Source of the DNA: Rhodoferax sp.
GTDB lineage: Bacteria; Pseudomonadota; Gammaproteobacteria; Burkholderiales; Burkholderiaceae_C
NCBI RefSeq assembly: GCF_028688795.1
Contig: NZ_JAQTXM010000007.1
Span: 62,001-126,000 of the forward strand
Direction of reading: 5' to 3'
Length of the DNA stretch: 64,000 nucleotides
The position numbers were made by a program, and so were the translations under genes. The notes under the pieces are model-generated. The model was not told the origin of the DNA, did not search any database, and saw only the letters and a program-made list of their open reading frames with translations. Positions 9,819-37,993 of the stretch are shown piece by piece. Within the stretch, counting starts at the first letter, position 1. Each line of letters starts with the position of its first letter.

Positions 9819-9863
9819 TAGCCCATATGGGCTACTTATGCCCACCCTTCGTGGTGATAGACG
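9819..9863 (+). promoter_or_regulatory. Two-part dsr-regulon motif, copy 1 (tusA operon)
   Basis: Box 1 is the perfect palindrome TAGCCCATATGGGCTA (9819-9834). After exactly 8 nt comes box 2, CACC-N6-GGTGATAGACG (9843-9863). The same boxes with the same 8-nt gap occur at 19106-19149 and 34899-34942. Box 2 ends 118 nt before the tusA start codon. Confidence 0.8.
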
Positions 9864-9981
9864 CTCTGGGGAACGTCATCAAGAATCAGTTGATCGCATC
9901 GGCATCATTCATTCGTGTGAATGGGCCGGGCGTAAAGACTAGATTGTTTGGTTATCAATTATTCACTGACGGAGACACACC

Positions 9982-10209
9982 ATGGAATTTAATAAAGAAT
10001 TTGACGCGTCCGGCCTATCTTGCCCACTGCCCATCGTGAAGACCAAGAAGGCATTGCAAGACATGACATCGGGGCAAATATTGCGGGTGATTTCCACTGA
10101 TCCGGGCTCTGTCTGCGACATGGCGGCATTTGCCGAACAAACCGGCAACCCCTTGCTTGAGCAGAGCAGCGAAAACAGCAAGTTTGTGTTCTATCTCAAG
10201 AAAGCCTGA
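9982..10209 (+). CDS. tusA: TusA-family sulfurtransferase
   Basis: 75 aa, full length for the family. The N-terminal DASGLSCPLPIVKTKKAL contains the CPxP motif whose Cys carries persulfide sulfur. In sulfur oxidisers TusA passes sulfane sulfur to DsrEFH and then DsrC. First gene of a likely operon tusA-dsrE2-(unknown)-yeeE-trx-tusE, with the two-part motif 118 nt upstream. RBS GGAGAC precedes the ATG. Confidence 0.95.
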   Translation: MEFNKEFDASGLSCPLPIVKTKKALQDMTSGQILRVISTDPGSVCDMAAFAEQTGNPLLEQSSENSKFVFYLKKA

Positions 10210-10255
10210 GCCTGACACTCATAGAACCTTGACCAACTGACACCGGAGCGCACCC

Positions 10256-10726
10256 ATGGCAACCAAAAAAATGGCTCTCATCGCCACCAAAGGCACACTG
10301 GACATGGCCTACCCGCCGTTTATCCTGGCATCCACCGCGGCTGCGCTGGGCTGGGATGTGCAGATCTTCTTCACGTTCTATGGGCTGCAATTGCTGCGTA
10401 AAAATCTGGATGGGATCAAGATCAGTCCGCTGGCCAACCCCGCCATGCCCATGCCGGTGCCGATGCCCGTGATGGTGCAAATGCTGCCGGGCATGGAGTC
10501 CATGGCCACCATGATGATGAAGAACAAAATGAAGTCTAAGGGCGTGGCGTCGCTTCAGGAGTTGCGCGACATTTGCCTTGAATCAGACGTCAAGTTTGTG
10601 GCTTGCCAGATGACGGTCGATCTGTTTGAGTTTGAGACCAGTGAGTTCATCAAGGACGTGGAGTATGGCGGTGCCGCCACGTTCATGAAATTCGCCGGCG
10701 AGTCAGACGTTTGCCTGTTCATTTGA
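10256..10726 (+). CDS. dsrE2: DsrE2-like DsrE/F/H superfamily protein
   Basis: 156 aa. The DsrE fold starts KKMALIATKGTLDMAYPPFI. A Met/Pro-rich hydrophobic stretch (about residues 60-85) contains MPMPVPMPVMVQMLPGM and may insert in or contact the membrane; this is usual for DsrE2 proteins. Cysteines in RDICLESD and FVACQMTVDLFEF are candidates for persulfide carriage. Pairing with tusA is a recurrent cassette in sulfur oxidisers, where DsrE2 is proposed to take part in sulfur transfer to TusA. Confidence 0.9.
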   Translation: MATKKMALIATKGTLDMAYPPFILASTAAALGWDVQIFFTFYGLQLLRKNLDGIKISPLANPAMPMPVPMPVMVQMLPGMESMATMMMKNKMKSKGVASLQELRDICLESDVKFVACQMTVDLFEFETSEFIKDVEYGGAATFMKFAGESDVCLFI

Positions 10727-10732
10727 CTTGCC

Positions 10733-11617
10733 ATGAAAAAACTACTATTGGGTTGCGTCTTGCTTTGTGCTGCGCAATGGGGTTGGGCTTTGCAGCCTTA
10801 CCTGCAAGCTGCCAAGCTACCTGCTGCAGAGCTGTCTAGCCAGCTTTCGCAGGTTGAAAAGAAGCTTCAGGCGGAAGGCTTCAAGGTCTTGGGCAAGCAC
10901 ACTCCCAAAGGCATTGCCGGCTACGCCACGCTGGTGGTTTCTGACCCTGACATGCTGGAAGCAATCCGTGCTTCAGGCACCAATAGCAGCATCATTGCCG
11001 CTGGCATCCGAATTGGTGTGAGCAGTGAAGGTGCAGTCTCTTACATGAACCCGGACTACTGGTACCGCGCCTACTTGCGTGGCCATTACGCGGGGGCTGC
11101 CAAGTCAGTCAAGTCGGTGCAGGATCGCTTGGCCAAGGCCTTGGGAGATGGCGCTGGTTTTGGTGGTGATGTACCGCAAGGCGAGCTGGTCAATTACCGC
11201 TACATGTTTGGCATGGAGCGCTTTGACTCTGAAAACAGCTTGCTCGGGACCCATGCCAGTTTTGAGGACGCACTCAAGGCCGTGCAAGGCAACCTAGCGC
11301 GTGGCGTAGGTGACACCCAGCGTGTGTATGAGGTCATCATGCCAACGCAAAAAATGGCGGTGTTTGGCGTTGCTATGAACAGTACTAGCGACGGTGAAAG
11401 CTGGTGGGTGAACAAGATTGGTTCGGATCATCCGGCGGGCCTGCCTTATGAAGTTTTCATTGTGGACAATAAGGTGTATGCGCTCTATGCGCGTTACCGT
11501 ATTGCCCTGGCCTGGCCGGCTTTGGGTATGGGGCAGTTCATGGGCATCATCAACGCCCCTGAGGCGATACGCACCACACTCTCCCGGGTGGCTTCGGCGA
11601 ATGTGCCCGGCAATTAA
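10733..11617 (+). CDS. Uncharacterised secreted protein in the tusA operon
   Basis: 294 aa with a Sec signal peptide (MKKLLLGCVLLCAAQWGWA, cleavage likely near residue 19). The mature part begins with a helical, Lys/Glu-rich stretch containing EGFKVLGKHTPKG, then a mixed region with many Tyr/Trp and no internal cysteine. I do not recognise the family. It starts 6 nt after dsrE2 and precedes a YeeE-type transporter by 24 nt, so it is co-transcribed with cytoplasmic sulfur carriers while itself predicted periplasmic. A role in presenting sulfur compounds to the transporter is only a guess. Confidence 0.7.
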   Translation: MKKLLLGCVLLCAAQWGWALQPYLQAAKLPAAELSSQLSQVEKKLQAEGFKVLGKHTPKGIAGYATLVVSDPDMLEAIRASGTNSSIIAAGIRIGVSSEGAVSYMNPDYWYRAYLRGHYAGAAKSVKSVQDRLAKALGDGAGFGGDVPQGELVNYRYMFGMERFDSENSLLGTHASFEDALKAVQGNLARGVGDTQRVYEVIMPTQKMAVFGVAMNSTSDGESWWVNKIGSDHPAGLPYEVFIVDNKVYALYARYRIALAWPALGMGQFMGIINAPEAIRTTLSRVASANVPGN

Positions 11618-11641
11618 CCAAGCTTGATATCTGGAGCAGTA

Positions 11642-12751
11642 ATGACGGAAGCAATGAATCCCACCAGTTTGGTGGTTTGGGGTGGTTTTGTGCTGGCCTT
11701 TGTTTTTGGCGCAGTGGCCAACAAGACCAATTTTTGCACCATGGGCGCCATCTCCGACGTGGTCAACATGGAGCACTGGGGTCGCATGCGCATGTGGCTT
11801 CTGGTGATTGCTGTGGCCATGGCGGGTACCAACCTTTTGTACTATTTCGGCTTGATCGATTTGTCCAAGTCAATTTATGTGCGCACCAGCCTGCCCTGGT
11901 TGTCGCTGTTGGTGGGCGGGCTGTTGTTTGGGGTTGGCATGACGATCGCTGCGGGCTGCGCCAACAAGAATCTGGTTCGCCTGGGTGGCGGGAGTTTGCG
12001 TTCTTTGGTGGTGCTGGTATTTTTGGCAATTTCTGCCTACATGACACTGAAGGGGCTGTTTGGCCAGTGGCGCGCCAGCTATCTGGACCCTGTAACGGTT
12101 GATTTGACGCAGTGGGGGCTCGCAGGGCAAACTTTGCCGCAAATGTTGGCCAAGCTTTCTGGCCTGGCTGATAAATCTGCCCTTCTCTCCAGCATGGGCG
12201 TGGTGGTCTTGGGTTTGCTGGCATTTGTGCTGAAAGACAAACGTTTTCGTGGCAACACCGTGCAAATGGTGGGTGCCGTTGTGTTGGGCTTGCTAGTGGT
12301 TGGGGGCTGGTATCTCACGGGCCATGTGGGTTACGGTGAAAACCCTGAAACCATGGAAATGGTTTTTTTCGGCACCAACACCCGGACCTTGGAGTCCTTG
12401 AGTTTTGTCGCGCCAACGGCCTATAGCCTGGAGTTGTTGATGCTCTGGACTGACAAATCGATGCGTGTCACCTTTGGTATCGCCACTGCCGTGGGGGTTG
12501 TATTGGGCTCCTTTGCTTACGCCATCAGCACGCGGCAATTTCGCTGGGAAGGCTTTGCCTCCCTGGAAGACTTGCGCACCCAATTGGTGGGCGCGGTGCT
12601 GATGGGCTTTGGTGGCGTGACTGCGGTGGGTTGCACCGTTGGGCAGGGGCTTACCGGTGTCTCAACACTGGCGCTGGGTTCATTCATTGCACTGGCCAGC
12701 ATCATCGCAGGCGCAGCAGGCACCATGAAGTACCAGGACTGGCGCAGTTAG
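11642..12751 (+). CDS. YeeE/YedE (TsuA-like) sulfur-compound transporter
   Basis: 369 aa, multi-pass inner-membrane protein. Family hallmarks are the Cys-containing motifs NKTNFCTMGAISD (N-terminal), GMTIAAGCANKNLVRLGG (middle) and GVTAVGCTVGQGLTG (C-terminal). These line the thiosulfate path in the structurally studied TsuA. I chose the ATG at 11642 (GGAG upstream) over a TTG 18 nt earlier. In this operon it probably imports thiosulfate or sulfane sulfur for TusA. A second paralogue lies at 47050-48144. Confidence 0.88.
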   Translation: MTEAMNPTSLVVWGGFVLAFVFGAVANKTNFCTMGAISDVVNMEHWGRMRMWLLVIAVAMAGTNLLYYFGLIDLSKSIYVRTSLPWLSLLVGGLLFGVGMTIAAGCANKNLVRLGGGSLRSLVVLVFLAISAYMTLKGLFGQWRASYLDPVTVDLTQWGLAGQTLPQMLAKLSGLADKSALLSSMGVVVLGLLAFVLKDKRFRGNTVQMVGAVVLGLLVVGGWYLTGHVGYGENPETMEMVFFGTNTRTLESLSFVAPTAYSLELLMLWTDKSMRVTFGIATAVGVVLGSFAYAISTRQFRWEGFASLEDLRTQLVGAVLMGFGGVTAVGCTVGQGLTGVSTLALGSFIALASIIAGAAGTMKYQDWRS

Positions 12752-12756
12752 ACCGA

Positions 12757-13140
12757 ATGGAACTTGTCTTTGATGTCGAGGAGTCAGATTTTGAGGCGCT
12801 GGTTGTCGCGCGATCTCACTCAGTACCGGTGGTGCTTGACATTGGGGCTGACTGGTGTGGCCCGTGCCGCATGCTGACCCCGTTGCTGGAGCGGCTCGCA
12901 GTCAAATACGCTGGAAAATTTGTGCTGGCCAAAGTCGATGCCGATGAAAACATGCGCATAGCTGGCAGGCATCAAGCCAAAGGGTTTCCGACGGTGATCG
13001 CTTATAGCCATGGGCAAGTTGTAGACCGATTTCACGGTATGCAGACAGAAGGCTTTTCGCGACACTTCCTAGATAAATTGATTGCCCACCAGGCAACACT
13101 GTCAAACGCTTCTCAGCCGGATGACTCCGGCAGGGTTTGA
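12757..13140 (+). CDS. Thioredoxin-like protein
   Basis: 127 aa thioredoxin fold with the canonical WCGPC active site in GADWCGPCRMLTPLLERLA and the cis-Pro region GFPTVIAY. No signal peptide, so cytoplasmic. The start is the ATG at 12757, 5 nt after the transporter stop. Between a sulfur transporter and a TusE-like gene, it likely reduces persulfide or disulfide intermediates, but a general redox role is possible. Confidence 0.88.
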   Translation: MELVFDVEESDFEALVVARSHSVPVVLDIGADWCGPCRMLTPLLERLAVKYAGKFVLAKVDADENMRIAGRHQAKGFPTVIAYSHGQVVDRFHGMQTEGFSRHFLDKLIAHQATLSNASQPDDSGRV

Positions 13141-13167
13141 ACTTAACCAAGATCAGAAAGAGTCCTC

Positions 13168-13464
13168 ATGATGAATCTGCCAGAACGCGACGGCGATGGT
13201 TATTTGACCGACATGGGCGAATGGACCGAGGAGGTTGGTCGTGCCATGGCACAGGCTGACAATTTTGAACTTGATGATGTCAAGTGGGCACAAATCCTGA
13301 AAGCGCGTGAGTATTACGAAGAATTTGGCAGTGTTCCGCCCATTCGTAAATTTGCCAAGTACCTCGAAGAAGAGCAAAACGCTGTTTTCAAACTCTGGAT
13401 GACCGGCCCGATGAAACCCATCACCAAGTATGGCGGCTTGCCCAAACCCACGGGTTGCGTTTAG
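13168..13464 (+). CDS. tusE: DsrC/TusE-family protein with one C-terminal cysteine
   Basis: 98 aa. It ends GLPKPTGCV, keeping the penultimate DsrC cysteine (Cys97). The second DsrC cysteine, 11 residues earlier, is replaced by Thr86 (PITKYGGLPKPTG). That is the TusE-like pattern, able to accept sulfur from TusA but not to form the DsrC intramolecular disulfide or trisulfide. Last gene of the tusA operon; it overlaps the convergent gene at 13461 by 4 nt. One of four DsrC-family sequences in the window. Confidence 0.9.
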   Translation: MMNLPERDGDGYLTDMGEWTEEVGRAMAQADNFELDDVKWAQILKAREYYEEFGSVPPIRKFAKYLEEEQNAVFKLWMTGPMKPITKYGGLPKPTGCV

Positions 13465-14593: not shown

Positions 14594-16069
14594 TTAGAGC
14601 GCCAAGGTAAAAATCTGGCTTTCCGGGACACCTGAGGCGTGCAATTCTTCATGCAGTGTGCTGACAAAACTTGCAGGGCCAGCCAGGTAGAAATCACAGT
14701 CAAGTTCAAACAGGTCGGCCCGCATGGCTTGGGCAATTTGCCAGGCACCCATGGCCACATCGCTGTGGGTGACGAGTTCATATTCAAACTGGTCCAGCGC
14801 TTCAGACCAGGCACGGCACTGGTTGCTGTAGAAGTGGCCATCACTGCGGGTTGCCAGCCAAAACAGGGACAGTGAGGGCGATGCGTCAAGTGACAAGGCG
14901 TACTCAATCAAGCTCTTGATGGGCCCGAACCCTCCGTCACAGGCCGCAAAAACCAGAGGCCGGTTACCTTCAGCCAAAACAAACTCACCTGCAGGGCCCA
15001 GAACGCTGACGGTGGTGCCCGGTTTGACATGACCGTCGAACAAGTTGTTGGCAAAGTCGTCATCTGGGTCACGAGTCACAAAAAACAGCAAATTCCGGTC
15101 ATCACACGGACAGCTGGCGACCGCGTAGCTGGCATGAATGTCCGATTGCCCCGGTAGGCTGCAACCCAGCCGTACAGATTGACCCGCCAGGAAGCGCAGC
15201 CGGTGGGTGCGCGGGGTCTGCAGGTGCAACAGCAGGGTGTTGGGTGCCAAGGTGCTGAGCGCGCGCACTTGGGTGCTGATGAGTTGCTCGGGGATGTCTT
15301 GCGGGCCTGTGGCCTCCAGCATTTCAAGCGTTAGCGTGCTGCTGGCTGCGGTGTGGCAGCACATCAAGGTGTAGCCTTGCGCTTTTTCTGCCTCCGACAA
15401 GGCGTAGTCAAAGTGCTGCACCTTGGCGACTTCGCCCGAGATCACCCGCACCTTGCACATGCCGCAACTGCCGTTACCACAACCGTAGTTGAGTTTGAGG
15501 CCAGAGTGCAAACCCGCTTGCAGCAGGCTGGCCCGTCCTTCTACGGCGAACTCATGGCCGCTGGGGCGCACAGTGACCTGTGCCGTCATGACTTTGAGCA
15601 TGTCGTCCATGACCTCCAGCATGCCCACAGGTTCGGTGGCCAGCGCTTTGGCTAATCCTTGTGTCACTTGTTGCTCCAATTCAAGCCAGGCGGTACCGCC
15701 GGGCGGCTGGGTGAGTTGTTGGCGGATGGTTTTTTGCAACGCAATCACCAGCTCGTGGTAACGCTGCAAGTGCCGGCGCAGGTCTGCGAGTTCCTGGCTT
15801 TGCGTGAACAGGCGTTGCGCCAGCACTTCCTGGCTGGGCAACAGGCGCTCCCGTACGCGCTTGCCAAAGGCCTCGTCGCGAATCTGGGTCACCCGTTCCA
15901 GCAAGCCCGACTCTTCGAGCTGCGCTTGCGGGTACATCTGCTGCAGCGTGTCGGTGGACACCATGCCGTCGTTCAACACCAGTGTGCCGTCGCGCACTTG
16001 TTGTTGCAACATGCCTCGCGCCACACCCAGCAACTGGGCGGCGCGCCAAACACTGACTTGGTGGGACAT
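14594..16069 (-). CDS. HTH-coiled-coil-ferredoxin-flavin reductase fusion
   Basis: 491 aa. Residues 1-50 look like a helix-turn-helix (SVWRAAQLLGVARGMLQQQV); 50-125 is a charged probable coiled coil. A plant-type [2Fe-2S] ferredoxin domain follows (about 163-250), with C197-x4-C202-x2-C205 in YGCGNGSCGMC and C237. Then come an FAD domain (HASYAVASCP) and an NAD domain (FAACDGGFGPIKSLIEYAL) of the ferredoxin-NADP reductase superfamily. It resembles CDP-glucoseen reductases and oxygenase reductases. The N-terminal HTH is unusual. It may feed electrons to the dioxygenase upstream or to rDsr partners. Confidence 0.8.
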   Translation of the reverse strand: MSHQVSVWRAAQLLGVARGMLQQQVRDGTLVLNDGMVSTDTLQQMYPQAQLEESGLLERVTQIRDEAFGKRVRERLLPSQEVLAQRLFTQSQELADLRRHLQRYHELVIALQKTIRQQLTQPPGGTAWLELEQQVTQGLAKALATEPVGMLEVMDDMLKVMTAQVTVRPSGHEFAVEGRASLLQAGLHSGLKLNYGCGNGSCGMCKVRVISGEVAKVQHFDYALSEAEKAQGYTLMCCHTAASSTLTLEMLEATGPQDIPEQLISTQVRALSTLAPNTLLLHLQTPRTHRLRFLAGQSVRLGCSLPGQSDIHASYAVASCPCDDRNLLFFVTRDPDDDFANNLFDGHVKPGTTVSVLGPAGEFVLAEGNRPLVFAACDGGFGPIKSLIEYALSLDASPSLSLFWLATRSDGHFYSNQCRAWSEALDQFEYELVTHSDVAMGAWQIAQAMRADLFELDCDFYLAGPASFVSTLHEELHASGVPESQIFTLAL

Positions 16070-16075
16070 GATTAT

Positions 16076-16123
16076 GCTATATGGTTAATAGCTACTCGCG
16101 CTTGTTTATAAAGGGCTAGAGCC
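16076..16123 (-). repeat. Interspersed repeat, copy C
   Basis: 48 nt on the minus strand between the dioxygenase and reductase genes of the accessory operon. Reading along the operon it runs GGCTCTAGCCCTTTATAAAC ... GTAGCTATTAACCATATAGC. Its GCTAT-ATAGC arms can pair, so it could attenuate or process the operon mRNA here. Confidence 0.75.
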
Positions 16124-16126
16124 TGA

Positions 16127-17047
16127 TTATGTATAAATTTCTGAGATCTTTACGCTGTTGCCTGCATGTGCTGGTTTGGCGATCCGGTCCAGGTAACGCG
16201 CCCGGTAAAGTAATCTGGGCTGCTTGGGGTCATCGTCAAAGCCGGTTCGGTCATGCAGCACGTTGTTGCAAACCAGCCCCATGCCAGGCGAGAGCTGCAG
16301 CCGGAAAACATGCGGGTTGTCACTGCCAAGGAGCTGCTCCAAAAAAGCCACAGCCTGGCGGGTAAGGGCATCGTCTTTCCACACGATGCTGCGCGTGCGG
16401 GCGGTGTAGCGCATGTGCAGTTCGCCACTTTGTGCATGCACCGAAAACACCGGGCCTGCCTGCTCTGGGCGGGCAATACCGTCGTCATCCAGCCGTTCCG
16501 GAATGGTCATGGCGTCTGATGCCATCAGCGCAGCAATCCAGTCGGGGTTGGCATCGCGCAGGGCAATGTAGGCCATTTCATGGTCCATCAGGGCGGTTTC
16601 CCCGCCGCTTTTGGCTGGCCGCACGCAATGCAACACCATGCCGCGAATCAGACGGTCAGCGGGTTGGTAGTAGCCGTCGGTGTGCCATTTGATGGGGCGG
16701 TTGGTGTAGGGGATGAACGCAGGGCGGTCACCCACCGGGGCAGCGACCGCAATGGGTGAAATGCCGTCCTCATCCGCCAGCCAGTTGCCGTCAAGGCGAT
16801 GCAGGCCCAGCTGGTTGGCCAAAAGCCGCGCAATAGATTTGTCTTCCAGCAAGATCGGGCTGCGGTAAATGGCCATGTTGGCCACTGCGCAGCGCTGCAG
16901 CAGCGCTTGGCGCTCGCATGTCTGCAGCGTGCGTGGGTCTGCCACGTCAACAATCAAGTCGGATGCCTGGTGTGGCTGGCTGGCCAATTTGTTGTCACGC
17001 CAGCGCTGGTAGGCGTCAGTTTGTTTCAGGTCAAAAGGGTTCGGCAT
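16127..17047 (-). CDS. TauD/TfdA-family Fe(II)/2-oxoglutarate dioxygenase
   Basis: 306 aa from the ATG at 17047 (starts MPNPFDLKQTDAYQRW), which leaves 13 nt to the preceding gene; an upstream start would overlap it. The facial-triad HxD is in WHTDGYYQPAD, the distal His in CNNVLHDRTGF, and a 2-oxoglutarate-binding Arg is likely in LLYRARYLDR. Family members hydroxylate taurine, other sulfonates, or amino-acid and betaine substrates. The substrate here is unknown; a sulfonate is attractive, but no sulfonate transporter is nearby. Confidence 0.85.
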   Translation of the reverse strand: MPNPFDLKQTDAYQRWRDNKLASQPHQASDLIVDVADPRTLQTCERQALLQRCAVANMAIYRSPILLEDKSIARLLANQLGLHRLDGNWLADEDGISPIAVAAPVGDRPAFIPYTNRPIKWHTDGYYQPADRLIRGMVLHCVRPAKSGGETALMDHEMAYIALRDANPDWIAALMASDAMTIPERLDDDGIARPEQAGPVFSVHAQSGELHMRYTARTRSIVWKDDALTRQAVAFLEQLLGSDNPHVFRLQLSPGMGLVCNNVLHDRTGFDDDPKQPRLLYRARYLDRIAKPAHAGNSVKISEIYT

Positions 17048-17060
17048 GGCGGTTTGGACG

Positions 17061-17678
17061 TTAGTCTTCTGACGCGACACCGCGTGCGGCGCGCGCTGGA
17101 CGCGGTTTTGTGGACAACACGCCCTCCATGCCGCGCTTGATCATCTCCAGGGCATCGGGCACCTCGCTGGCCATGATTTGGTCAACCACCCAGCGTTGGT
17201 CTTTTTGCGGCATCAGCGTTTCAATGCGGTGGCCCAGGTAGCGCACAAACGCAAAGTCCGGACCATGTGCATCAAAGCCAAAATCCGCGTAGTGGTCGGC
17301 CAGTTCGTTGAACAAGTCGATGAACTGGTCATAGTGGCTGGCTTGCCCTGCGGGTGGCACGCCCATCAGCCCGTCTTCGTTTTCTTGCAACACTTCGGCG
17401 ACCCGCTGCACCAGGGCCGTCATGAATTCGCCACGCAAGTCGCCGTCCATGCGTTCGTCTGCCATGCGGTCCAGCACCTGAATCAGAAACACCAGCACCT
17501 CGTGGGTGAAGGCAAAGTATTGCGGCCCAATCTCAATGTCAAAACTGGCCGAGCGCATTTGCTTGAGCATGTTCTGCGCCACGCGCCAGGTGATGAATGC
17601 CATGGCGCTGGCGGTTTGCTTGGGCGTTTTGGCGGCGCCATCGTTAAACCACTGGCTCTTGATTCTTATGTTGGCCAT
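17061..17678 (-). CDS. Uncharacterised conserved-looking cytoplasmic protein
   Basis: 205 aa from the ATG at 17678; a GTG at 17756 would add 26 residues. Mostly helical, no cysteine, no signal peptide. Acidic middle region (MADERMDGDLRGEFM) and basic C-terminus (KPRPARAARG). I do not recognise the family. It lies between a DsrC-like gene and the dioxygenase, all co-directional with short gaps. Confidence 0.65.
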   Translation of the reverse strand: MANIRIKSQWFNDGAAKTPKQTASAMAFITWRVAQNMLKQMRSASFDIEIGPQYFAFTHEVLVFLIQVLDRMADERMDGDLRGEFMTALVQRVAEVLQENEDGLMGVPPAGQASHYDQFIDLFNELADHYADFGFDAHGPDFAFVRYLGHRIETLMPQKDQRWVVDQIMASEVPDALEMIKRGMEGVLSTKPRPARAARGVASED

Positions 17679-17765
17679 GCGTTGCCCCAAGCCGTGCTGA
17701 ATCCGACGGCCCGATGAGGCCGTCGGGGGTACTGATGTCTGCAAGGTGGGCAGCACAGGCGCATG

Positions 17766-18095: not shown

Positions 18096-18129
18096 TTGTG
18101 TTCTCCGTTTTCCAGTTGATAAAACCTGT

Positions 18130-20585: not shown

Positions 20586-20624
20586 AGCCAGCTTGTCCTT
20601 GATAACTGATTAAGAAAGATAACC

Positions 20625-21695: not shown

Positions 21696-21700
21696 ACGCT

Positions 21701-21756: not shown

Positions 21757-21764
21757 GGAACACC

Positions 21765-22124: not shown

Positions 22125-22147
22125 CCCCGTACAGAGAAGCACACACT

Positions 22148-22537: not shown

Positions 22538-22543
22538 GGACAA

Positions 22544-25584: not shown

Positions 25585-25629
25585 GCCCGCCCCGCATACC
25601 GCCAAGTACACAAACCAGGAGACTTCGAC

Positions 25630-27588: not shown

Positions 27589-27591
27589 CCC

Positions 27592-28769: not shown

Positions 28770-28772
28770 CAC

Positions 28773-29945: not shown

Positions 29946-29947
29946 AA

Positions 29948-31693
29948 ATGAGCAGCTTGCTGATTTCTGCCGCCCATAAATCATCCGGCAAGACGACGGT
30001 GACGGTGGGCTTGTGTGCAGCCTTGTCGGCTCAAGGCACGGTGGTACAGCCGTTCAAGAAGGGGCCCGATTACATCGACCCGATGTGGTTGGCACAGGCC
30101 AGCGGGCGTGACTGCTTTAATCTTGACTCCTACCTGATGACGCAAGAGCAGATCACTGACTGCTTCACGCGTCAATCGGTGGGGTCTGACATCAGCATCG
30201 TCGAGGGTAACAAAGGCTTGTACGATGGCCTTGCATTGGACGGCAGCAACAGCAATGCTGCGCTGGCGCATTTGCTGGATATGCCTGTGGTGCTAGTGCT
30301 CGACGCACGCGGCATGACGCGCGGTATTGCCCCGCTGATTTTGGGCTATCAGGCATTTGACGCGCACATCCGTATTGCAGGCGTCATTCTGAACCAACTG
30401 GGTGGTGCTCGCCACGAATCCAAACTGCGGGCTGTGATTGAATATTACACCGACGTTCAGGTGCTCGGCGCCATCGGCCATGACCCACGTCTGGCTGTGG
30501 TGGAGCGCCATTTGGGACTGATGCCCAACCATGAGTTGGACGACGCCAGTCAGCGAGTGCGTGCCATGGGTGAGCTAATCGGTTCCCAGGTTGATTTATC
30601 CAAGGTGCTGCAGATTGCCGCCAGTGTCGCGCCGCTGCTGTCCTCAGCTATTGCACCGACGGCCACACCGCCCACCCTGCAACCATCTCGTGTTCGGATT
30701 GGACTGGCACGCGACAAAGCCTTTGGCTTCTACTACCCGGACGACCTGCTGGCATTGGAGCAAGCCGGGGCCGAGATCATTCCGTTCGACACGCTGCATG
30801 ACACCCGCTTGCCCGAGGTCGATGGTCTGTTTATCGGCGGCGGATTTCCTGAAATGTTCATGCCAGAGTTGCAGGCCAATACGGCTCTGCGCAGCAGCAT
30901 CAAAGCCGCCATTGAATCCGACATGCCGGTCTATGCCGAATGTGGCGGCCTCATGTACTTGGCGCGTACGTTGCGCTGGAAAGGCGAGGTTTACAACATG
31001 GTGGGTGCCCTGGCTGCCGATGTTGTTATGCACGATCGTCCGGTGGGTCGTGGCTATGTGGCACTGGAAACCACCAGCGATGCGCCCTGGCGAACCGACA
31101 TCGGACAGACGCTGCGCGGGCATGAGTTTCATTACTCCAGCCTGGAAAACGTGGCTCCCGGGCTGAAGTTTGCCTACCGCGTCAAGCGTGGGCACGGCGT
31201 GGACGGCGAGCGCGACGGCATTGTTTATCGAAAGGTGCTCGCCTCCTACGCCCATCTGCGTAGCGGCGCTGGATCAGATTGGGCCGCGCAATTTGTGGCC
31301 TTTGTTCGTGCGCAAAGCATGACTTTGAAAGCGCCGATACCGGCGTTGGTGGCGACCATGAGCGTTTTGGTCAGCGGCAAAGCGATCGATACCGACACCG
31401 AAGGCTATATAAAAAATCTGGACGAATGGTCTGAGGAATTTGCGCTGGCCCGAGCGAAAGCGGAGCATTTGGAGCTTACTGAGGCACATTGGCAAGTCAT
31501 TGCATTTTTGCGTGCTTACTACGAAGAGCATCGGGTGCAGGCGCAGGTGCGGGCCATGATTTGGCATTTCTCGAAAGTTTGGGGTCCTGAGTTGGGCAAC
31601 AATCATCATTTACACACGCTTTTCCCGATTGGGGGACCGCAAAAGCAAGGCAACCGATTGGCCGGTCTTTTGAAGACCAAAGGCGAACATTAA
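29948..31693 (+). CDS. dsrN: DsrN (CbiA-like amidase) fused to a cysteine-free DsrC domain
   Basis: 581 aa. Residues 1-460 are a cobyrinic acid a,c-diamide synthase-type amidase: the P-loop region ISAAHKSSGKTTVTVGL, GPDYIDPMW, and a glutaminase-type triad Cys in PVYAECGGLMYLARTL. DsrN is thought to amidate sirohaem for DsrAB. From about residue 471 (MSVLVSGKAIDTDTEGYIKN) a whole DsrC/TusE domain follows, with LTEAHWQVIAFLRAYYEEH. It ends NRLAGLLKTKGEH, lacking both DsrC cysteines. Usual DsrN is ~460 aa. An internal start at 31358 could also give the DsrC part alone. Confidence 0.93.
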   Translation: MSSLLISAAHKSSGKTTVTVGLCAALSAQGTVVQPFKKGPDYIDPMWLAQASGRDCFNLDSYLMTQEQITDCFTRQSVGSDISIVEGNKGLYDGLALDGSNSNAALAHLLDMPVVLVLDARGMTRGIAPLILGYQAFDAHIRIAGVILNQLGGARHESKLRAVIEYYTDVQVLGAIGHDPRLAVVERHLGLMPNHELDDASQRVRAMGELIGSQVDLSKVLQIAASVAPLLSSAIAPTATPPTLQPSRVRIGLARDKAFGFYYPDDLLALEQAGAEIIPFDTLHDTRLPEVDGLFIGGGFPEMFMPELQANTALRSSIKAAIESDMPVYAECGGLMYLARTLRWKGEVYNMVGALAADVVMHDRPVGRGYVALETTSDAPWRTDIGQTLRGHEFHYSSLENVAPGLKFAYRVKRGHGVDGERDGIVYRKVLASYAHLRSGAGSDWAAQFVAFVRAQSMTLKAPIPALVATMSVLVSGKAIDTDTEGYIKNLDEWSEEFALARAKAEHLELTEAHWQVIAFLRAYYEEHRVQAQVRAMIWHFSKVWGPELGNNHHLHTLFPIGGPQKQGNRLAGLLKTKGEH

Positions 31694-31713
31694 TTCTCAT
31701 AAGGAGCGACAGC

Positions 31714-32091
31714 ATGTTTAACTTGACCGACGCCGCTGCAAAGCAGATTCAACAGGCGGCTGATGCCAGTGGTACCAGCGAAATGGCGCTGCGAGTGGCA
31801 GCAAAAAAAGATGCTGACGGCGCATTGCAATACGGTATGGGCTTTGATCATCCCAACGAAGACGACATGAAGCTGGACCTTCAGGGTGTTGCCGTTGTCA
31901 TTAACGGAGAGTCGCAGGCGTTGCTGTTTGACACCGTGCTGGATTTTGTGGAGCTCAATCCGGGCGAGTTCAATTTTATTTTCATGCATGCCAGCCATCC
32001 GTCATGTGGTGTGGACACAGCGGGCTCTGGCGGGTGTGCTAGCGGTGGATGCAGCAGTGGTGGTTGCGGCAGCAAAGGCCTCACCCATTGA
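31714..32091 (+). CDS. dsrR: DsrR, A-type (IscA-like) protein
   Basis: 125 aa, IscA/HesB fold: [37 protein letters not shown] and [14 protein letters not shown]. It lacks the regular three-cysteine IscA pattern, as does known DsrR, which influences DsrAB formation post-transcriptionally in Allochromatium. The C-terminus is a Gly/Ser/Cys run with three GGC units ([19 protein letters not shown]), possibly metal-binding. Its start has RBS AAGGAG. Confidence 0.9.
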
Positions 32092-32108
32092 AAGCAGATG
32101 TGAAGCCC

Positions 32109-32882
32109 ATGAAGCCAAACCTTGGTAAGGTCTACCTGGTGGGTGCTGGCCCTGGCGACCCGGAGCTGCTCACACTGCGGGCTGTGCGTTTGCTTCAAAA
32201 AGCTGATGTCATTGTTTATGACAATCTGGTGTCACCCGGTGTGCTTGACTTTGTCCCACCTGCAGCAGAGCGAATTTACGCCGGCAAGCGACGCAACGAG
32301 CACACCTTGCGCCAGGAGCAGATCAACAGTTTGCTGGTCAAGCTTGCGGGGGAGGGTAAGCAGGTCGTGCGACTAAAAGGCGGCGACCCTTTCATATTCG
32401 GTCGTGGTGGTGAAGAATTGCAAACGCTCGCTGCACATGGTGTGGCTTTTGAAGTGGTTCCGGGCGTGACCGCAGCCTCTGGTGTGTCAAGTTATGCCGG
32501 CATTCCGCTCACGCACAGGGACTATGCACAGTGCTGCTTGTTTGTCACGGGACACCTCAAAGATGGCACGGCTGACTTGGATTGGCCGAGTCTGGTCAGA
32601 CTAAACCAGACCGTGGTGATTTACATGGGCTTGGGCGGGTTGCCTGAAATCTGTCGTCAGATGATGGCGCACGGTGCTGCCTCAAACCTGCCCATTGCTG
32701 TTGTGCAAGACGGCAGCATCGTCACGCAAAAAGTAGTCACAGGAACTTTGGCGGACATGCCTGAAAAAGTGGCTCAAGCCGGTTTGAAATCCCCGTGTCT
32801 CACAATCATTGGTGAAGTTGTCAAATTGCACGAAGAGTTGGCTTGGTTTAACCCGGTCCAAAGTGAGGTGGCTGCGCGATGA
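32109..32882 (+). CDS. cobA: Uroporphyrinogen-III C-methyltransferase
   Basis: 257 aa from the ATG at 32109 (a TTG at 32088 is possible). SAM-binding [36 protein letters not shown] and [20 protein letters not shown] define the SUMT family. It makes precorrin-2, the precursor of sirohaem needed by DsrAB. Dehydrogenase and chelatase steps are not encoded here (no CysG fusion). It ends the dsr operon, convergent with the response-regulator gene. Confidence 0.94.
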
Positions 32883-32900: not shown

Positions 32901-33599
32901 TTAGCTCTTGATTTTGTGATTGTGATCGCCGATGGCCTTGGCGCCATCGGGTGTGCTGCGGTATTCAAACGAAAAAACCGCTGCTTCCACCCGCGACCGT
33001 AAATTGAGCTTGTCCATGATGTGGCGCACGTGCAGCTTGACAGTGTTGTGGCTGATATCAAGCGCCTTTGCGATGACCTTGTTGCTCTGTCCGCTGGCAA
33101 CATGGTCAAGCACCTGGCGTTCACGCTCGGTTAACGTTGCAACCAGATCACCCATGGCCGAGCCTTTCGGGCCAGTTTGAAGAATCTGGGCGAACTTCAG
33201 CATCATCGCTGACGCGACCACCATTTCGCCGCGCGCAGCACGGCCAATGGCGTCTATCACCTCTTCGGGCTCCATGTCTTTGAGCAAGTAGCCACGTACC
33301 CCGGCCCGCAACGCGGCAGACATGTCGTCTTCGTTGTCACTCATCGTGAGGATCACCACAGGCGTGTCGAGTTCCCCTGCGCGAATCATCCTCAGCACGC
33401 TCAGGCCATCAGTCTGGGCCAGCCGCAAGTCCAGAACAAGCAAATCTGGCTGGTGCTCGCGTAGCATGGGCATCACCAAATCCGGGTTGCCAGTGGCCGC
33501 GACGACGGCCATGCCACCCCGGTGCTCCAACAATTCGGTCAGGCCGCTTCTACACAGCGAATGGTCGTCGACCAGCATGATGCGTGTTTTAGTGGTCAT
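32901..33599 (-). CDS. NarL-family response regulator
   Basis: 232 aa. The receiver domain has the acidic pair in IMLVDDHSLCRSG, phospho-Asp in LLVLDLRLAQTDG, and Lys in YLLKDMEPEEV. The LuxR-type HTH is LTERERQVLDHVASGQSNKVIAKALDIS (shown in part) with LNLRSRVEAAVF. It overlaps its kinase gene by 4 nt. Located between dsrR-cobA and soeABC, it is the best local candidate for recognising the two-part motif at tusA, dsr and soe. Confidence 0.93.
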   Translation of the reverse strand: MTTKTRIMLVDDHSLCRSGLTELLEHRGGMAVVAATGNPDLVMPMLREHQPDLLVLDLRLAQTDGLSVLRMIRAGELDTPVVILTMSDNEDDMSAALRAGVRGYLLKDMEPEEVIDAIGRAARGEMVVASAMMLKFAQILQTGPKGSAMGDLVATLTERERQVLDHVASGQSNKVIAKALDISHNTVKLHVRHIMDKLNLRSRVEAAVFSFEYRSTPDGAKAIGDHNHKIKS

Positions 33600-34807
33600 G
33601 ATGCTCTATCACTTGCTGTGTTGTTGCGCGGAATGCTCAAGCGCACCCGCGTACCGATGCCGTCGTTGCTGCCCACTTCGAGGCGACCGTTCAAGCGATG
33701 TGCCCGGCTTTGCATGATGTCCAGACCAAAGTGCGTAGAGGGCACCATGGGTCGGGCAGAAGTCACAATGGTTGCGACAGAGGGCTCGTCCATTCCCAAT
33801 CCGTCATCTTCGATTAGAAATTCAAGATGCTGAGAGGTTTGGCTGATCAGCACCACGGCATGGCGTGCCATGGAGTGTTTGGCGATGTTCGCCAGTGCTT
33901 CCTGAATGATGTAAAACACCTGCACTTCCTGCTCATCCGTCAGGTTCAGGTTGGATGCCGAATTGCGTATTTCAAGTGCGATGGCATTTTTGGTAAAAAA
34001 GCTGTCTGCGATGGTGCCCAGTGCGTGTAGCAAGCCAAGTGGGTCCATGCGTGTGCGGAAGTAAGTCATGACCTCCCGCAGGTTGTCATGCACTTCGGTC
34101 ACTGCCGTTTTCAGGTCTGAGAAATACTTCAGGGCCTTTTCCTCATCATGGGCCACGATGGCATCGCTCAATAGCGGCAACCGCATTCGGGCGTAGGCCA
34201 GTGTTTGTGCCAGCGCATCGTGTACCTCGTTGACCATATCCTGACGCTCTTTCATCACCGTCACTCGCAAACGCTCGCGCTCAATGCGGGCGTTGTGCAA
34301 AGACAACCCCAACAACTGACCAATCAGTCGCAGCAGGGTTTCTGTCGGCGCGTCAATCTTTCGGTTGCTCTCGAAAAACAAGTTATAGATGCCGAGAATT
34401 TGCTGGTTGTGGTTTAGCGAAATGGCCAGAACACTCTTACATTTCAATCCAAAATACTTTGAGTCGCCGCCGTGCTTGCTGCATGACGATACGTCTTCAA
34501 TCCAAGCCAAGGCATCGGCATTGGCTGCCATGCCGCATACGCCGCAGTGCCGGTCAACCAGTCGCTCAGAGTCCACCAGATCACTTGGTAGCCCCTGCTG
34601 CGCGATCAATCGCAAGAATTTGCCGTCGTCCGTCAATATCCGAACAGCCCCCGCTTGCGCGCCGGCCAAGGCAATGATCGCGTCCAGAAAACGTGACAAC
34701 AACGCTTCTATGTCCTCAGGCATGACAAGATCTGATGCCAGTAATGTGGCAACGAACGCAACGTCCGAAGAATTTGGTTTGGCAGGAAAGGCAGTGATTG
34801 AACGCAT
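33596..34807 (-). CDS. Soluble NarX-like histidine kinase with a GAF cysteine cluster
   Basis: 403 aa from the ATG at 34807 (a TTG at 34849 would add 14). No transmembrane segment. A GAF-like domain spans about 25-175; inside it four cysteines, C88-x2-C91-x17-C109-x13-C123, lie in DRHCGVCGMAAN and VSSCSKHGGDSKYFGLKCK. A HisKA_3 dimerisation helix (MVNEVHDALAQTLAYARMRL) and an HATPase domain with EDDGLGMDE follow. Cytoplasmic sensing, with cysteines possibly binding Fe-S, haem or persulfide, fits a sulfur-metabolism kinase. Divergent from soeA. Confidence 0.9.
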   Translation of the reverse strand: MRSITAFPAKPNSSDVAFVATLLASDLVMPEDIEALLSRFLDAIIALAGAQAGAVRILTDDGKFLRLIAQQGLPSDLVDSERLVDRHCGVCGMAANADALAWIEDVSSCSKHGGDSKYFGLKCKSVLAISLNHNQQILGIYNLFFESNRKIDAPTETLLRLIGQLLGLSLHNARIERERLRVTVMKERQDMVNEVHDALAQTLAYARMRLPLLSDAIVAHDEEKALKYFSDLKTAVTEVHDNLREVMTYFRTRMDPLGLLHALGTIADSFFTKNAIALEIRNSASNLNLTDEQEVQVFYIIQEALANIAKHSMARHAVVLISQTSQHLEFLIEDDGLGMDEPSVATIVTSARPMVPSTHFGLDIMQSRAHRLNGRLEVGSNDGIGTRVRLSIPRNNTASDRAS

Positions 34808-34898
34808 CTTGGCTAAATATTTCGGACCATGGTAAGAGATAAATACCAACTTATGTATTGCGGAAAACCAAGGGGTGTGCGGATTTATTTCGCCATGC

Positions 34899-34942
34899 TA
34901 CCCATTTGGGCTACTTCCAACCACCCGTGGCGGTGATAGACG
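34899..34942 (+). promoter_or_regulatory. Two-part dsr-regulon motif, copy 3 (soeABC)
   Basis: TACCCATTTGGGCTA (34899-34913), 8 nt, then CACC-N6-GGTGATAGACG (34922-34942). Ends 114 nt before the soeA ATG. It also lies 92 bp upstream of the divergent kinase start. Confidence 0.82.
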
Positions 34943-35056
34943 CGATCGGTGACCTTGTTTTTAATAGGGTCACTTTGCATCTTTGTGAATGTCCGTTGGG
35001 TCAGCACAGTTCGCATTCCTTGTCTATTGCCAATTCAGTCAAAGAGCGCTCATCGC

Positions 35057-37993
35057 ATGTCTGTCATACCGATTCACGACCCTCTCCGCCCACCTCTGGC
35101 TGATGCCACGCTTGAAACGCGCAACACCACCTGCTACATGTGCGCCTGCCGCTGCGGCATCCGGGTGCACTTACGCAACGGCGAGGTGCGCTACATCGAA
35201 GGCAACCCCGAGCACCCGCTGAACCAGGGCGTGATCTGTGCCAAAGGATCTTCGGGCATCATGAAGCAATATTCGCCCGCCCGGCTGACCAAGCCGCTGC
35301 TTCGTAAACCCGGCAGCGACCGTGGCGAAGGCCAGTTCGAGGAAATCGAATGGGAGGTGGCCTTCTCCATGCTGGAAGAGCGTCTCGCGAAGATTCGCGC
35401 CACCGACCCCAAAAAGTTTGCCCTGTTCACCGGGCGTGACCAGATGCAGGCGCTCACCGGTCTGTTCGCACGCCAGTTTGGCACGCCCAACTACGCTGCC
35501 CACGGTGGCTTTTGCTCAGTCAACATGGCCGCCGGGATGATATACACCATCGGCGGCTCGTTCTGGGAGTTTGGCGGCCCCGATCTGGAGCGCGCCAAGC
35601 TGTTTGTGATGATCGGCACCGCCGAAGACCACCACTCCAACCCGATGAAGGCGGCCCTGAGCAAGTTCAAACGCAACGGTGGCCGCTTTGTGTCGATCAA
35701 CCCGGTGCGCACCGGCTACTCGGCCATTGCCGACGAGTGGGTGCCGATCAAACCCGGCACCGACGGCGCGCTGTTACTGGCCTTGATTCATGAACTCATC
35801 AAACTCGGCCTGTACGACCGCGAGTTTCTGGCCCGCTACACCAATGCCGGCCAACTGGTTAACCAGGACAGCGCCAGCGACGACTTCGGCATGTTCCTTC
35901 GCAACCCCGAGGGCGACATCGGCAACCCGCTGCGCCCGGCCAATTTCAAATGGTGGGACCGGCTCACCGAACGAGACGTAGCTGACCACAAGGAAGGCGC
36001 CGACCCGGCCCTGCTCGGCCACTTCAAACTGCCCGACGGCACCGCCGCCGTGCCCGCCTTTCAGCTGCTCGAAGAACGCGTCAAACCCTACACCCCCGAG
36101 TGGGCCGAAGGCATTACCGGCATTCCAGCGGCCACCATCCGCCGCCTGGCGCACGAGATGGGCATCACCGCGCGGGATCAAAAAATTGAGCTACCCATCG
36201 CCTGGACCGACAGCTGGGGCAAGCGCCACCACTCGGTCACCGGCAACCCGGTGGCTTTTCATGCCATGCGCGGCCTGGCGGCGCACTCCAACGGCTTTCA
36301 GACCATTCGTTCGCTGTCAATTTTGATGTCGATGCTGGGCACCATCGACCGCCCGGGCGGCTTCCGCCACAAAGCGCCCTACCCGCGTGCCGTACCGCCC
36401 AATGCCCGCCCGCCCAAAGGGCCGCAGGCCGTCAAACCCAACACGCCGCTGGATGGCGCGCCGCTGGGCTGGCCCGAGAGCCCGGACGATTTGTTTGTGG
36501 ACGACCAGGGCCAGCCGGTGCGCATCGACAAAGGCTTCTCCTGGGAGCACCCGTTGTCGGCCCACGGCCTGATGCACAACGTCATCACCAACGCCTGGAA
36601 AGGTGACCCCTACCGCATCGACACCTTGCTGATCTTCATGGCAAACATGGCGTGGAACTCCACCATGAACACGTCTGAAGTGCGCAACATGCTCAACGAC
36701 AAGCACACCGAGGGCGAGCACAGCGAGGGCGAGCACAGCGGCGAGTACAAGATTCCGTTCCTGGTGGTGTGCGACGCCTTCCAGTCAGAGATGACCGCCT
36801 TTGCCGACCTGATCCTGCCCGACACCACGTACCTGGAACGCAACGATTGCATGTCGATGCTGGACCGCCCGATCTCCGAGTTCGATGGCCCGGCCGACTC
36901 GGTGCGCATTCCGGTGGTGGCACCCAAAGGCCAGTGCAAACCGTTCCAGGAGGTACTGGTGGAGCTGGCCGGGCGCCTCAAGTTGCCCGCCTTCACGCAG
37001 TCAGATGGCAGCCGCAAGTTCAAGGGCTACACCGACTTCATCGTCAACTACGAAACCGCGCCGGGCTCCGGCATCGGCTTCCTGGCGGGCTGGCGCGGCA
37101 AGAGCGGAGAGAAATCCATGCGCGGCGAGCCCAACCCCAAGCAGTGGGAAATGTACGAAAAAAACAACTGCGTCTTCCATTACGCGATGCCGCTAGAACA
37201 CCAGTACATGCGCAACTGGAACCAAGGCTACATGGACTGGGCGCAACAGGTCGGCATCCGGCGCGACAAAGACCCGATCGTGATCCACATCTACTCTGAA
37301 TTTTTGCAGGGCTTTCGCCGCGCCGCGCAGGGCAAGCGCCCCGGCAAGCAGCCGCCAGACCATTTGCGCAAACGGGTGGAAACCTACTTCGACCCTCTGC
37401 CGTTTCATTACGTGCCGCTGGAAGTGCAGGCGACCGACACCGCCAAATACCCGCTCAACGCGATCACCCAGCGACCGATGGCGATGTACCACTCGTGGGA
37501 CTCGCAAAACGCCTGGTTGCGCCAAATTCACACACACAACTACCTGTTTGTCAGCCCCAGAACGGCCCAGGCGCAAGGCATTCTTGATGGTGGCTGGATG
37601 TGGGTTGAGTCACAGTGGGGCAAGGTGCGCTGCATGTGCCGCTACTCCGAAGCTGTAGAGCCCGGCACGGTCTGGACCTGGAACGCCATCGGCAAGTCCG
37701 CCGGGGCCTGGAATCTGAGTGCAGACGCCAATGAATCACAAAGAGGCTTTTTGCTCAACCACCTGATCTCGGAGGTGTTGCCGCCTTCAAGTGCCGGCAA
37801 AGCGATCTCCAACTCGGACCCCATTACCGGCCAGGCCGCCTGGTATGACGTGAAGGTCCGCATCTACAAGGCGGCGGATGACGAGCCGCAGCAAACGTCG
37901 CCGCAATTCAAGGCGGTACCTGCCGCTCCCGGTATGCGCCAGGTGTTGCCGCGCATTCAGGCTTATTTTGCGGGCAAGGGAGACACGAAATGA
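35057..37993 (+). CDS. soeA: SoeA, molybdopterin subunit of cytoplasmic sulfite dehydrogenase
   Basis: 978 aa from the ATG at 35057. CISM-family molybdoenzyme: N-terminal [4Fe-4S] site CYMCACRCGIRVHL and GVICAKGSSGIMKQYSP, Mo-bis-MGD domains throughout. In sulfur oxidisers SoeABC oxidises sulfite to sulfate on the cytoplasmic side. No Tat signal, agreeing with SoeA rather than periplasmic PsrA. A perfect 15-nt tandem duplication (36710-36739) encodes EGEHSEGEHS in a surface-type loop. Overlaps soeB by 4 nt. Confidence 0.94.
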   Translation: MSVIPIHDPLRPPLADATLETRNTTCYMCACRCGIRVHLRNGEVRYIEGNPEHPLNQGVICAKGSSGIMKQYSPARLTKPLLRKPGSDRGEGQFEEIEWEVAFSMLEERLAKIRATDPKKFALFTGRDQMQALTGLFARQFGTPNYAAHGGFCSVNMAAGMIYTIGGSFWEFGGPDLERAKLFVMIGTAEDHHSNPMKAALSKFKRNGGRFVSINPVRTGYSAIADEWVPIKPGTDGALLLALIHELIKLGLYDREFLARYTNAGQLVNQDSASDDFGMFLRNPEGDIGNPLRPANFKWWDRLTERDVADHKEGADPALLGHFKLPDGTAAVPAFQLLEERVKPYTPEWAEGITGIPAATIRRLAHEMGITARDQKIELPIAWTDSWGKRHHSVTGNPVAFHAMRGLAAHSNGFQTIRSLSILMSMLGTIDRPGGFRHKAPYPRAVPPNARPPKGPQAVKPNTPLDGAPLGWPESPDDLFVDDQGQPVRIDKGFSWEHPLSAHGLMHNVITNAWKGDPYRIDTLLIFMANMAWNSTMNTSEVRNMLNDKHTEGEHSEGEHSGEYKIPFLVVCDAFQSEMTAFADLILPDTTYLERNDCMSMLDRPISEFDGPADSVRIPVVAPKGQCKPFQEVLVELAGRLKLPAFTQSDGSRKFKGYTDFIVNYETAPGSGIGFLAGWRGKSGEKSMRGEPNPKQWEMYEKNNCVFHYAMPLEHQYMRNWNQGYMDWAQQVGIRRDKDPIVIHIYSEFLQGFRRAAQGKRPGKQPPDHLRKRVETYFDPLPFHYVPLEVQATDTAKYPLNAITQRPMAMYHSWDSQNAWLRQIHTHNYLFVSPRTAQAQGILDGGWMWVESQWGKVRCMCRYSEAVEPGTVWTWNAIGKSAGAWNLSADANESQRGFLLNHLISEVLPPSSAGKAISNSDPITGQAAWYDVKVRIYKAADDEPQQTSPQFKAVPAAPGMRQVLPRIQAYFAGKGDTK

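Follow-up and report, generated by a model that had tools for sequence, protein, structure and literature searches.

Reverse-Dsr sulfur oxidation is widespread, and here we describe a two-part DNA motif, made up of a box 1 and a box 2 separated by 8 nt, that precedes sulfur-oxidation genes in a stretch of DNA from Rhodoferax sp. (assembly GCF_028688795.1, contig NZ_JAQTXM010000007.1, positions 62,001-126,000). This whole stretch of 64,000 nt is called the window below, and the genome searched comprises 4,988,259 bp (4.99 Mb). NarL-type two-component pairs and tandem activated promoters are already known, and NreC is one such NarL-type regulator. The NreBC system of Bacillus licheniformis is described as sulfide-responsive, controlling sqr-pdo and activating sulfur-oxidation genes (PMC9918477). 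At the Escherichia coli ogt promoter, NarL is reported to activate from -44.5 together with -77.5, and also from -67.5 (PMC7419079), and an engineered NarL site, TACCCCTAAAGGGGTA, has halves similar to those of our motif (PMC4549865). Regulators of other types have been described as well: SoxR and sHdrR are ArsR-type repressors of sox and shdr in Hyphomicrobium denitrificans (PMC12423496), a LuxR-type and other regulator genes of Hyphomicrobium respond to thiosulfate (PMC11582611), and DsrR of Allochromatium vinosum takes part in the regulation of sulfur oxidation (PMC11406059). A term search for regulators in the latter paper, which deals with the evolution of Dsr-mediated oxidation, gave DsrR only. 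Full-text searches of the open literature (5.39 million papers, subscription papers mostly outside), several of them broad, found no transcription factor or operator for dsr, tusA or soe in sulfur oxidisers. DsrC of Allochromatium reportedly binds DNA upstream of dsrA.

From the analysis below, we consider it likely that a NarL-type response regulator and a GAF-domain histidine kinase, encoded side by side in the window, act as activators of four operons (tusA, accessory, dsr and soe) through tandem-operator promoters.

Motif copies in the window and in the genome

Re-reading the window sequence bore out the three motif copies of the original prediction together with their coordinates: site A, TAGCCCATATGGGCTA-N8-CACCCTTCGTGGTGATAGACG, lies before tusA (9819-9863, plus strand), site B, TACCCATTTGGGCTA-N8-CACCCGTCCCGGTGATAGACG, before the accessory operon (19149-19106, minus strand), and site C, TACCCATTTGGGCTA-N8-CACCCGTGGCGGTGATAGACG, before soeA (34899-34942, plus strand). 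The exact pattern CACC-N6-GGTGATAGACG has three matches in the whole genome, each inside the window, and the runners-up carry two mismatches. At up to three mismatches, the same pattern has 128 genome matches versus 166 for a backwards control, and therefore loose look-alikes of the motif are not enriched. We then searched the genome with a profile of 48 columns built from 29 sites (named R1), and at E ≤ 0.05 only sites B (1.3e-13), C (1.4e-12) and A (1.1e-10) were returned; these scores are partly circular because sites A, B and C themselves went into the building of the profile, while the lack of a fourth site is not circular. A weight-matrix scan of the window gave no further full copy, the sox and fcc regions included, and box 1 by itself had weak matches at 19446 and 24256, both intragenic. 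GGTGATAGACG also occurs within the coding sequence of the regulator itself (33261, minus strand), which we take as a chance occurrence.

Scattering of the motif away from sulfur genes, which would have spoken against the original prediction, is not what the genome holds: the motif is confined to sulfur genes genome-wide here, and the position-matrix scan of the genome and its relatives that had been proposed yielded these three genome sites only, with targets mostly kept in the relatives. A fixed distance of 113-118 nt from the motif to the start codon had also been pointed out. This is true in this genome but varies in relatives, where CACC is 51-156 nt away from the point at which the match to the homologous tusA or DUF6967 begins; the start-codon distance is therefore not a conserved feature, and the agreement within the window is a coincidence.

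Promoter architecture of the sites

Alignment of the sites revealed that box 1 and box 2 are tandem copies of the same operator, approximately TTACC-N6-GGTAA, with centres 23 bp apart in the profile, and that the loop and the spacer are little conserved. The clearest operator pair, at locus L164 of a relative, reads TTACCCATTTGGGTAA, 8 nt, TTACCCGAGTCGGTAATAGACG, with centres 24 bp apart by eye; the box-to-box spacing, also by eye, is 1 base longer in this locus and in L020 and L054. Box 2 had been placed correctly in the original prediction, but it is really the proximal operator plus a -35 element, TAGACG, found in 59 members of a non-redundant set of 68 sites. The matrix used for site finding does not extend to the -10, yet 63 of the 68 have AAT at offset 67 or 68, corresponding to 17 or 18 bp past the -35 (other offsets, ≤ 3 sites). 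With the transcription start set 7 nt past the -10, the predicted starts fall at ~9893, 19075, 19209 and 34972, and the operator centres lie near -66.5 (box 1) and -43.5 (box 2). The sites thus share the ogt-type layout, in which one operator abuts the -35, a second operator lies upstream and the -10 follows at 17-18 bp, and each motif copy is predicted from its sequence to be a complete activator-dependent promoter of the sigma-70 type.

At site A (plus strand), the distal operator, box 1 TAGCCCATATGGGCTA, spans 9819-9834, and box 2 (9843-9863) consists in the site alignment of the proximal operator CACC-N6-GGTGA running into the -35 TAGACG (9858-9863); the predicted -10, AAGAAT (9881-9886), follows after a 17-bp spacer. 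At site B (minus strand), box 2 and its TAGACG (19111-19106) occupy 19106-19126 and face the accessory operon, whose predicted -10, CCCAAT (19082-19087), has an 18-bp spacer. Site C (plus strand) lies between the divergent kinase gene and soeA, with box 1 TACCCATTTGGGCTA at 34899-34913, box 2 with TAGACG (34937-34942) at 34922-34942 in the site alignment, and the predicted -10, TTTAAT (34960-34965), after a 17-bp spacer. The 16-bp box 1 of site A, alone among the boxes, can be read as a NarL 7-2-7 operator; we abandoned this reading, since the form seen across the sites is shorter by 2 bp.

The register bears on two other explanations. One is that the same regulator binds the motif and represses or tunes the promoters, as NarL-family proteins are reported also to repress, for example at frdA (PMC4549865). 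However, both operators are upstream of or abut the -35, none covers the -10 or the start, and the -10 is poor (consensus nnnAAT), as in activated promoters, which makes repression quite unlikely. The other is that the motif acts as RNA, in the form of a leader element or a riboswitch, and CACC-N6-GGTG is indeed able to form a small hairpin. However, the motif is upstream of the conserved -35 and -10 and hence outside the predicted transcript, its hairpin loop and spacer vary, no Rfam family reached threshold in the window, and the mirror-image arrangement at dsr (below) is as expected for DNA. We give an RNA element almost no credence and reject it on its position relative to the -35 and -10 and on the lack of an Rfam match in the window.

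The divergent dsr promoter pair

The original prediction included the guess that box 1 at 19135 might also serve dsrA. Taking the centre of box 1 as the mirror point, we reflected the intergenic region at dsr in 19 loci. The mirror frame brings out, in the same register and directed toward dsrA, another proximal box, TAGCG/TGGCG as a -35-like element and TA...T as the -10. GAT occupies the mirrored positions 39-41 in 16 of the 19 loci, and TA...T is found at offset 64 or 65, likewise in 16. In the window, the central box 1 (19135-19150), which has the same index in both directions of the mirror frame, is common to the divergent accessory and dsrA promoters. The dsrA-facing proximal operator, a degenerate TACCCAACGAGGGGGAT, and its -35-like TGGCGA (19174-19179) span 19158-19179 on the plus strand, and the predicted -10, TATTAT (19197-19202), follows after a 17-bp spacer, this arm as a whole reading TACCCAACGAGGGGGATGGCGA-N17-TATTAT. 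The conserved mirror-image arm with its -35 and -10 supports the guess, and therefore suggests that a single box 1 serves two divergent promoters and that dsrA is a fourth target.

Conservation in relatives

For comparison we used 80 dsrA loci from GTDB genomes and 30 kept from the order of the window (dsrA in 87 of 399 genomes). A matrix made from 17 seed sites gave 40 matches at ≥ 11 bits in the 110 loci and the window, and the reversed matrix gave none; presence of dsrA was the criterion for selecting the loci, and the 17 seeds count among the matches. Three of the 40 are the window's own, and among the 37 others the nearest downstream gene is tusA or DUF6967 in 35 and a TauE gene in two weak ones. 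The genera carrying the motif include Rhodoferax, Polaromonas, Hydrogenophaga, Piscinibacter, Ideonella, Ramlibacter and Rhizobacter, and the named isolates are Hydrogenophaga aromaticivorans, Piscinibacter defluvii, Ideonella sp. A 288 and, more weakly, Ideonella aquatica. In 56 motif-poor loci (two with weak full matches), the box 2 half alone had 22 matches, compared with 7 when the control was reversed. Of these 22, 18 precede tusA, DUF6967 or a TauE gene by no more than 450 bp, Gallionella-type genomes among them. Judged by these matches, the motif is kept before the same genes in many Burkholderiales relatives and appears in diverged form in Gallionella-type genomes.

A set of 51 genomes was then searched whole: our own, 26 in which a motif was obvious and 24 in which it was not, drawing on 50 of the 80 GTDB loci. 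R1 matched 37 of the 51 at E ≤ 0.05, with 1-4 matches per genome, and 30 at E ≤ 1e-4; stricter filters, applied to many genomes, drop weak matches. Sites were classified from 63 loci around whole-genome matches, a subset of all matches in which some places are counted twice. Among the 59 sites obtained, 58 are upstream of tusA, DUF6967 (divergent from dsrA), soeA (kinase-divergent) or a TauE gene and the remaining one is at a contig end, and 4 of the 63 loci had no site at 8 bits. Where soeA is away from the kinase, or the TauE-type exporter operon stands by itself (L188, L189, L180, L192 and L143), the site precedes the exporter operon, and therefore the site tracks sulfite handling, not soeA alone. 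In one genome (G413) a site precedes a Rieske gene, and in another (G414) a weak 14-bit site (L177, 1290-1337) adjoins the kinase and points toward an ATP sulfurylase gene. A site at soxY in a third genome (G403), taken up in the Discussion, reads weakly on the opposite strand too.

The candidate regulator and its kinase

The genes of the proposed binder (32901-33599, minus strand) and of the kinase (33596-34849, minus strand) form a pair (32901-34849) that is divergent from site C. The regulator belongs to the NarL/FixJ family, with a Response_reg domain (PF00072, 6.3e-26) and a LuxR/GerE-type DNA-binding domain (PF00196, 1.1e-21), and its closest solved structure is NarL (1a04_A; phmmer 4.6e-42, residues 6-212, both domains covered). 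The recognition helix reads TVKLHVRHIM in the regulator versus TVKVHVKHML in NarL. The match to the NCBIfam NarL model (3.2e-62, 209.5 bits) is below the cut-off of 250 bits, and therefore the regulator is not filed as NarL itself.

The kinase is predicted from hydropathy to be soluble, and its only Pfam domains are GAF, HisKA_3 and HATPase; by Pfam and hydropathy no periplasmic sensor or membrane segment was detected, the top 19-residue hydropathy (1.60) being located in the GAF domain. There is no PAS match in Pfam at E ≤ 0.001, and the protein is not a member of the NarX/NarQ type, its NCBIfam NarQ and NarX scores being far under the cut-off. A predicted model (mean predicted local distance difference test, pLDDT, 73.8; predicted template modelling score, pTM, 0.47) and a search of the PDB with it gave a histidine kinase with a DesK-like core and no ligand identity for the GAF domain. 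Cys102, Cys105 and Cys123 are invariant across 27 homologs, distant ones included, and this CxxC...C in the GAF domain is a possible Fe-S or persulfide sensor. The same CxxC...C is also found in kinase homologs adjoining non-sulfur genes.

Among the best 30 loci of a kinase search in the 51 genomes, 22 have a site in the kinase-divergent region (20 by the matrix; L164 and L176 by eye), and in the nearest relatives the regulator-kinase pair lies inside the sulfur cluster. By Pfam, the kinase at the 8 siteless loci neighbours NUDIX in three cases, nadC-like in two and, once each, a LysR regulator, an Fe-S protein and a copper chaperone of the PCuAC type. Beyond the nearest genera, kinase homologs ~36-49% identical occur in nearly all dsr genomes searched (50 of the 51 genomes at E ≤ 1e-30).

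To this we added a survey of 399 genomes of the window's family (thresholds: motif E ≤ 1e-4, kinase E ≤ 1e-50, dsrA E ≤ 1e-40). The motif is found in 36 and the kinase in 37; every motif genome has the kinase, and none of the 362 kinase-less genomes has the motif. The genome with the kinase and without a motif match (G696) has kinase coordinates and a kinase score equal to those of G419, whose motif scored 1.6e-4. Another genome (G777, 540 contigs) has the kinase and three sites, with dsrA not found, and three same-genus genomes (G652, G721 and G783) are without motif, kinase and dsrA. Fisher tests give 1.6e-50 by genome and 7.8e-22 by genus (tallies 18 and 19 of 141), values that ignore shared ancestry and are descriptive only. 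Since the kinase and dsrA co-occur, the family survey is unable to separate following of the kinase from following of dsr.

Adjacency (22 of the 30 kinase loci) and regulator type point to the kinase pair as the putative reader of the motif. Another protein encoded elsewhere, such as a further regulator of the LuxR family or a repressor whose gene is unlinked, might instead read the motif as a promoter-operator module; the survey would fit any gene travelling with dsr, and the 8 kinase loci without an adjoining site favour this idea. We find it unlikely, however, because the site is divergent from the pair in the other 22 loci, the pair belongs to the sulfur cluster in the nearest relatives, the family of the regulator binds TACC-type inverted repeats, and the sole other regulator tested by distribution, ArsR1, does not track the motif.

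ArsR1 (9458-9802) is encoded directly upstream of site A, its gene ending 17 bp before the site, and as an ArsR-type sulfane-sulfur repressor it could bind the palindromes in the manner of SoxR and sHdrR of Hyphomicrobium. It belongs to the ArsR family, the BigR model is among its matches (64.6 bits against a cut-off of 155), and SoxR and sHdrR are described as known repressors of sulfur oxidation (PMC12423496). However, a homolog was found in only 23 of the 51 genomes (E ≤ 1e-20), the best match and the sites are on different contigs in 15 of these 23 (draft assemblies), and operators that lie upstream of the -35 and directly against it are more in keeping with activation than with repression. 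Moreover, 8 of the 30 genomes with a strong site at E ≤ 1e-4 (G403, G409, G412, G413, G422, G423, G424 and G443) have no homolog at E ≤ 1e-20. ArsR1 as the binder is very improbable and is rejected on this distribution. Among the candidate regulators named in the original prediction, then, the NarL-type regulator fits and the ArsR protein beside tusA fails. A second ArsR homolog is encoded at 53014-53340.

Target operons

Downstream of site A, tusA, dsrE2, the gene at 10733 and genes for a YeeE/TsuA-like transporter, a thioredoxin and a TusE/DsrC-like protein (9982-13464, plus strand; NCBIfam) probably form one operon driven from this site, judging from spacing and strand. The accessory operon (14594-18992, minus strand; family searches) encodes DUF6967, Cmx6-like and DsrC-like proteins, the product of the gene at 17061, a TauD-like protein and a ferredoxin/flavin oxidoreductase; its gene order, ending with the FNR-type reductase, is kept divergent from dsrA in annotated relatives, contig ends allowed for. 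The second accessory gene (18130-18744, minus strand) scores 140.7 bits to the CRISPR model Cas6/Cmx6 TIGR02807 (cut-off 98.85) and sits between the DUF6967 and DsrC-like genes beside dsrA, a position kept in relatives. Either a Cas6-like fold was recruited to reverse-Dsr clusters or the family model is over-broad.

The dsr genes (19305-32882, plus strand) begin with dsrAB and end with an IscA-like gene (31714-32091) and a CysG-like gene. NCBIfam names dsrA, dsrB and these last two, Pfam gives a DsrE-type domain for the gene at 21995, and the other dsr letters were assigned by the usual gene order. Downstream of site C lie putative soeABC and, by domain searches, genes for a TauE-type sulfite exporter, the gene at 40750, Usp, Rieske and FadL/TodX (35057-44070, plus strand), which probably constitute a single transcription unit of this site, the TauE-Usp-Rieske-FadL genes included. 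NCBIfam identifies 34949-37993 as a molybdopterin oxidoreductase; the label soeA comes from the original prediction, and the labels soeB and soeC are putative.

Discussion

The layout of the sites is near that of ogt, and from this we infer activation by two regulator dimers. In the proposed mechanism, the GAF kinase would phosphorylate the NarL-type regulator, two dimers of which would bind the tandem operators, box 1 near -66.5 and box 2 near -43.5, the latter overlapping the -35 TAGACG. The bound regulator would bring RNA polymerase to a promoter that is weak and whose -10 is poor, so that the operons beginning with tusA-dsrE2, the accessory operon, the operon beginning with dsrAB (through the mirror promoter and the common box 1) and the operon beginning with soeABC-tauE would be switched on together. 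The GAF domain would sense a cytoplasmic cue, perhaps via the three invariant cysteines; these cysteines and the nature of the targets suggest sulfane sulfur or redox as the signal. That a single regulator controls the TusA-Dsr-Soe branch, as originally predicted, is strongly supported by the computation, as the motif is confined to these genes and its targets are mostly kept in relatives.

Several observations weigh against activation by the kinase pair. Beyond the nearest genera, sites often lack one half or score low, and the left half of the dsrA-facing proximal box is degenerate (one base off in the window). Compared with the 7-2-7 sites of NarL, the two halves of each operator stand 2 bp nearer to each other, and activation is preferred over repression from site position only. 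dsrA (36 of 399 genomes) and the kinase are equally tight in their co-occurrence with the motif, and the kinase homologs at the 8 siteless loci keep the cysteines. Finally, the separation from the Sox branch, which was part of the original prediction, holds in this genome, where sox and fcc have no copy, but G403 has a strong 48-bit site (L179, 4290-4337) between the divergent soxY and a dienelactone hydrolase gene.

A broader proposal, which we offer tentatively and regard as possible but rather doubtful, is that the pair is a dedicated and hitherto undescribed master switch of oxidative Dsr metabolism: the soluble GAF CxxC...C kinase would sense either sulfane sulfur in the cytoplasm or how reduced or oxidised the Dsr branch is, and its NarL-type partner would fire four tandem-operator promoters, including the divergent dsr pair with its common central operator. 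This switch would be ancestral to the reverse-Dsr clusters of Burkholderiales, and a diverged form of it to those of Gallionella-type Nitrosomonadales. The operator, promoter, targets and candidate sensor-regulator pair are specified to the base, and named isolates are among the carriers; therefore, how cytoplasmic sulfur oxidation is switched on becomes a directly testable question of pathway control.

Compared with the described systems, the locus combines familiar and distinct features. DsrR is an IscA-like protein and no DNA-binding regulator for which an operator is known; an IscA-like gene is also present here, near the end of the dsr genes. Dedicated regulation of sulfur-oxidation genes is shared with SoxR/sHdrR, whereas ArsR1, the ArsR-type protein here, does not follow the motif. 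The likeness to NarX/NarL at ogt is closer: two tandem inverted repeats, one abutting the -35 (reported at -44.5 for ogt; ~-43.5 here) and one upstream (-77.5 or -67.5 for ogt; ~-66.5 here), and a regulator whose closest solved relative is NarL. In contrast to the NarL 7-2-7 operator, with its inverted heptamers and 2-bp gap, the conserved form here is TACCC-N4-GGGYTA / ACCC-N4-CGGT, 2 bp shorter, and the regulon is sulfur oxidation, not nitrate. NarX and NarQ are described as having a periplasmic nitrate sensor and membrane segments (PMC8199190), whereas our kinase is soluble by hydropathy with neither detected. With NreBC, the locus shares a two-component pair over sulfur-oxidation genes; NreBC is described as having a PAS-type sensor (for which its authors suggest heme), a Gram-positive host and SQR/PDO targets (PMC9918477), whereas here a GAF sensor with three invariant cysteines is paired with Dsr/Soe targets.

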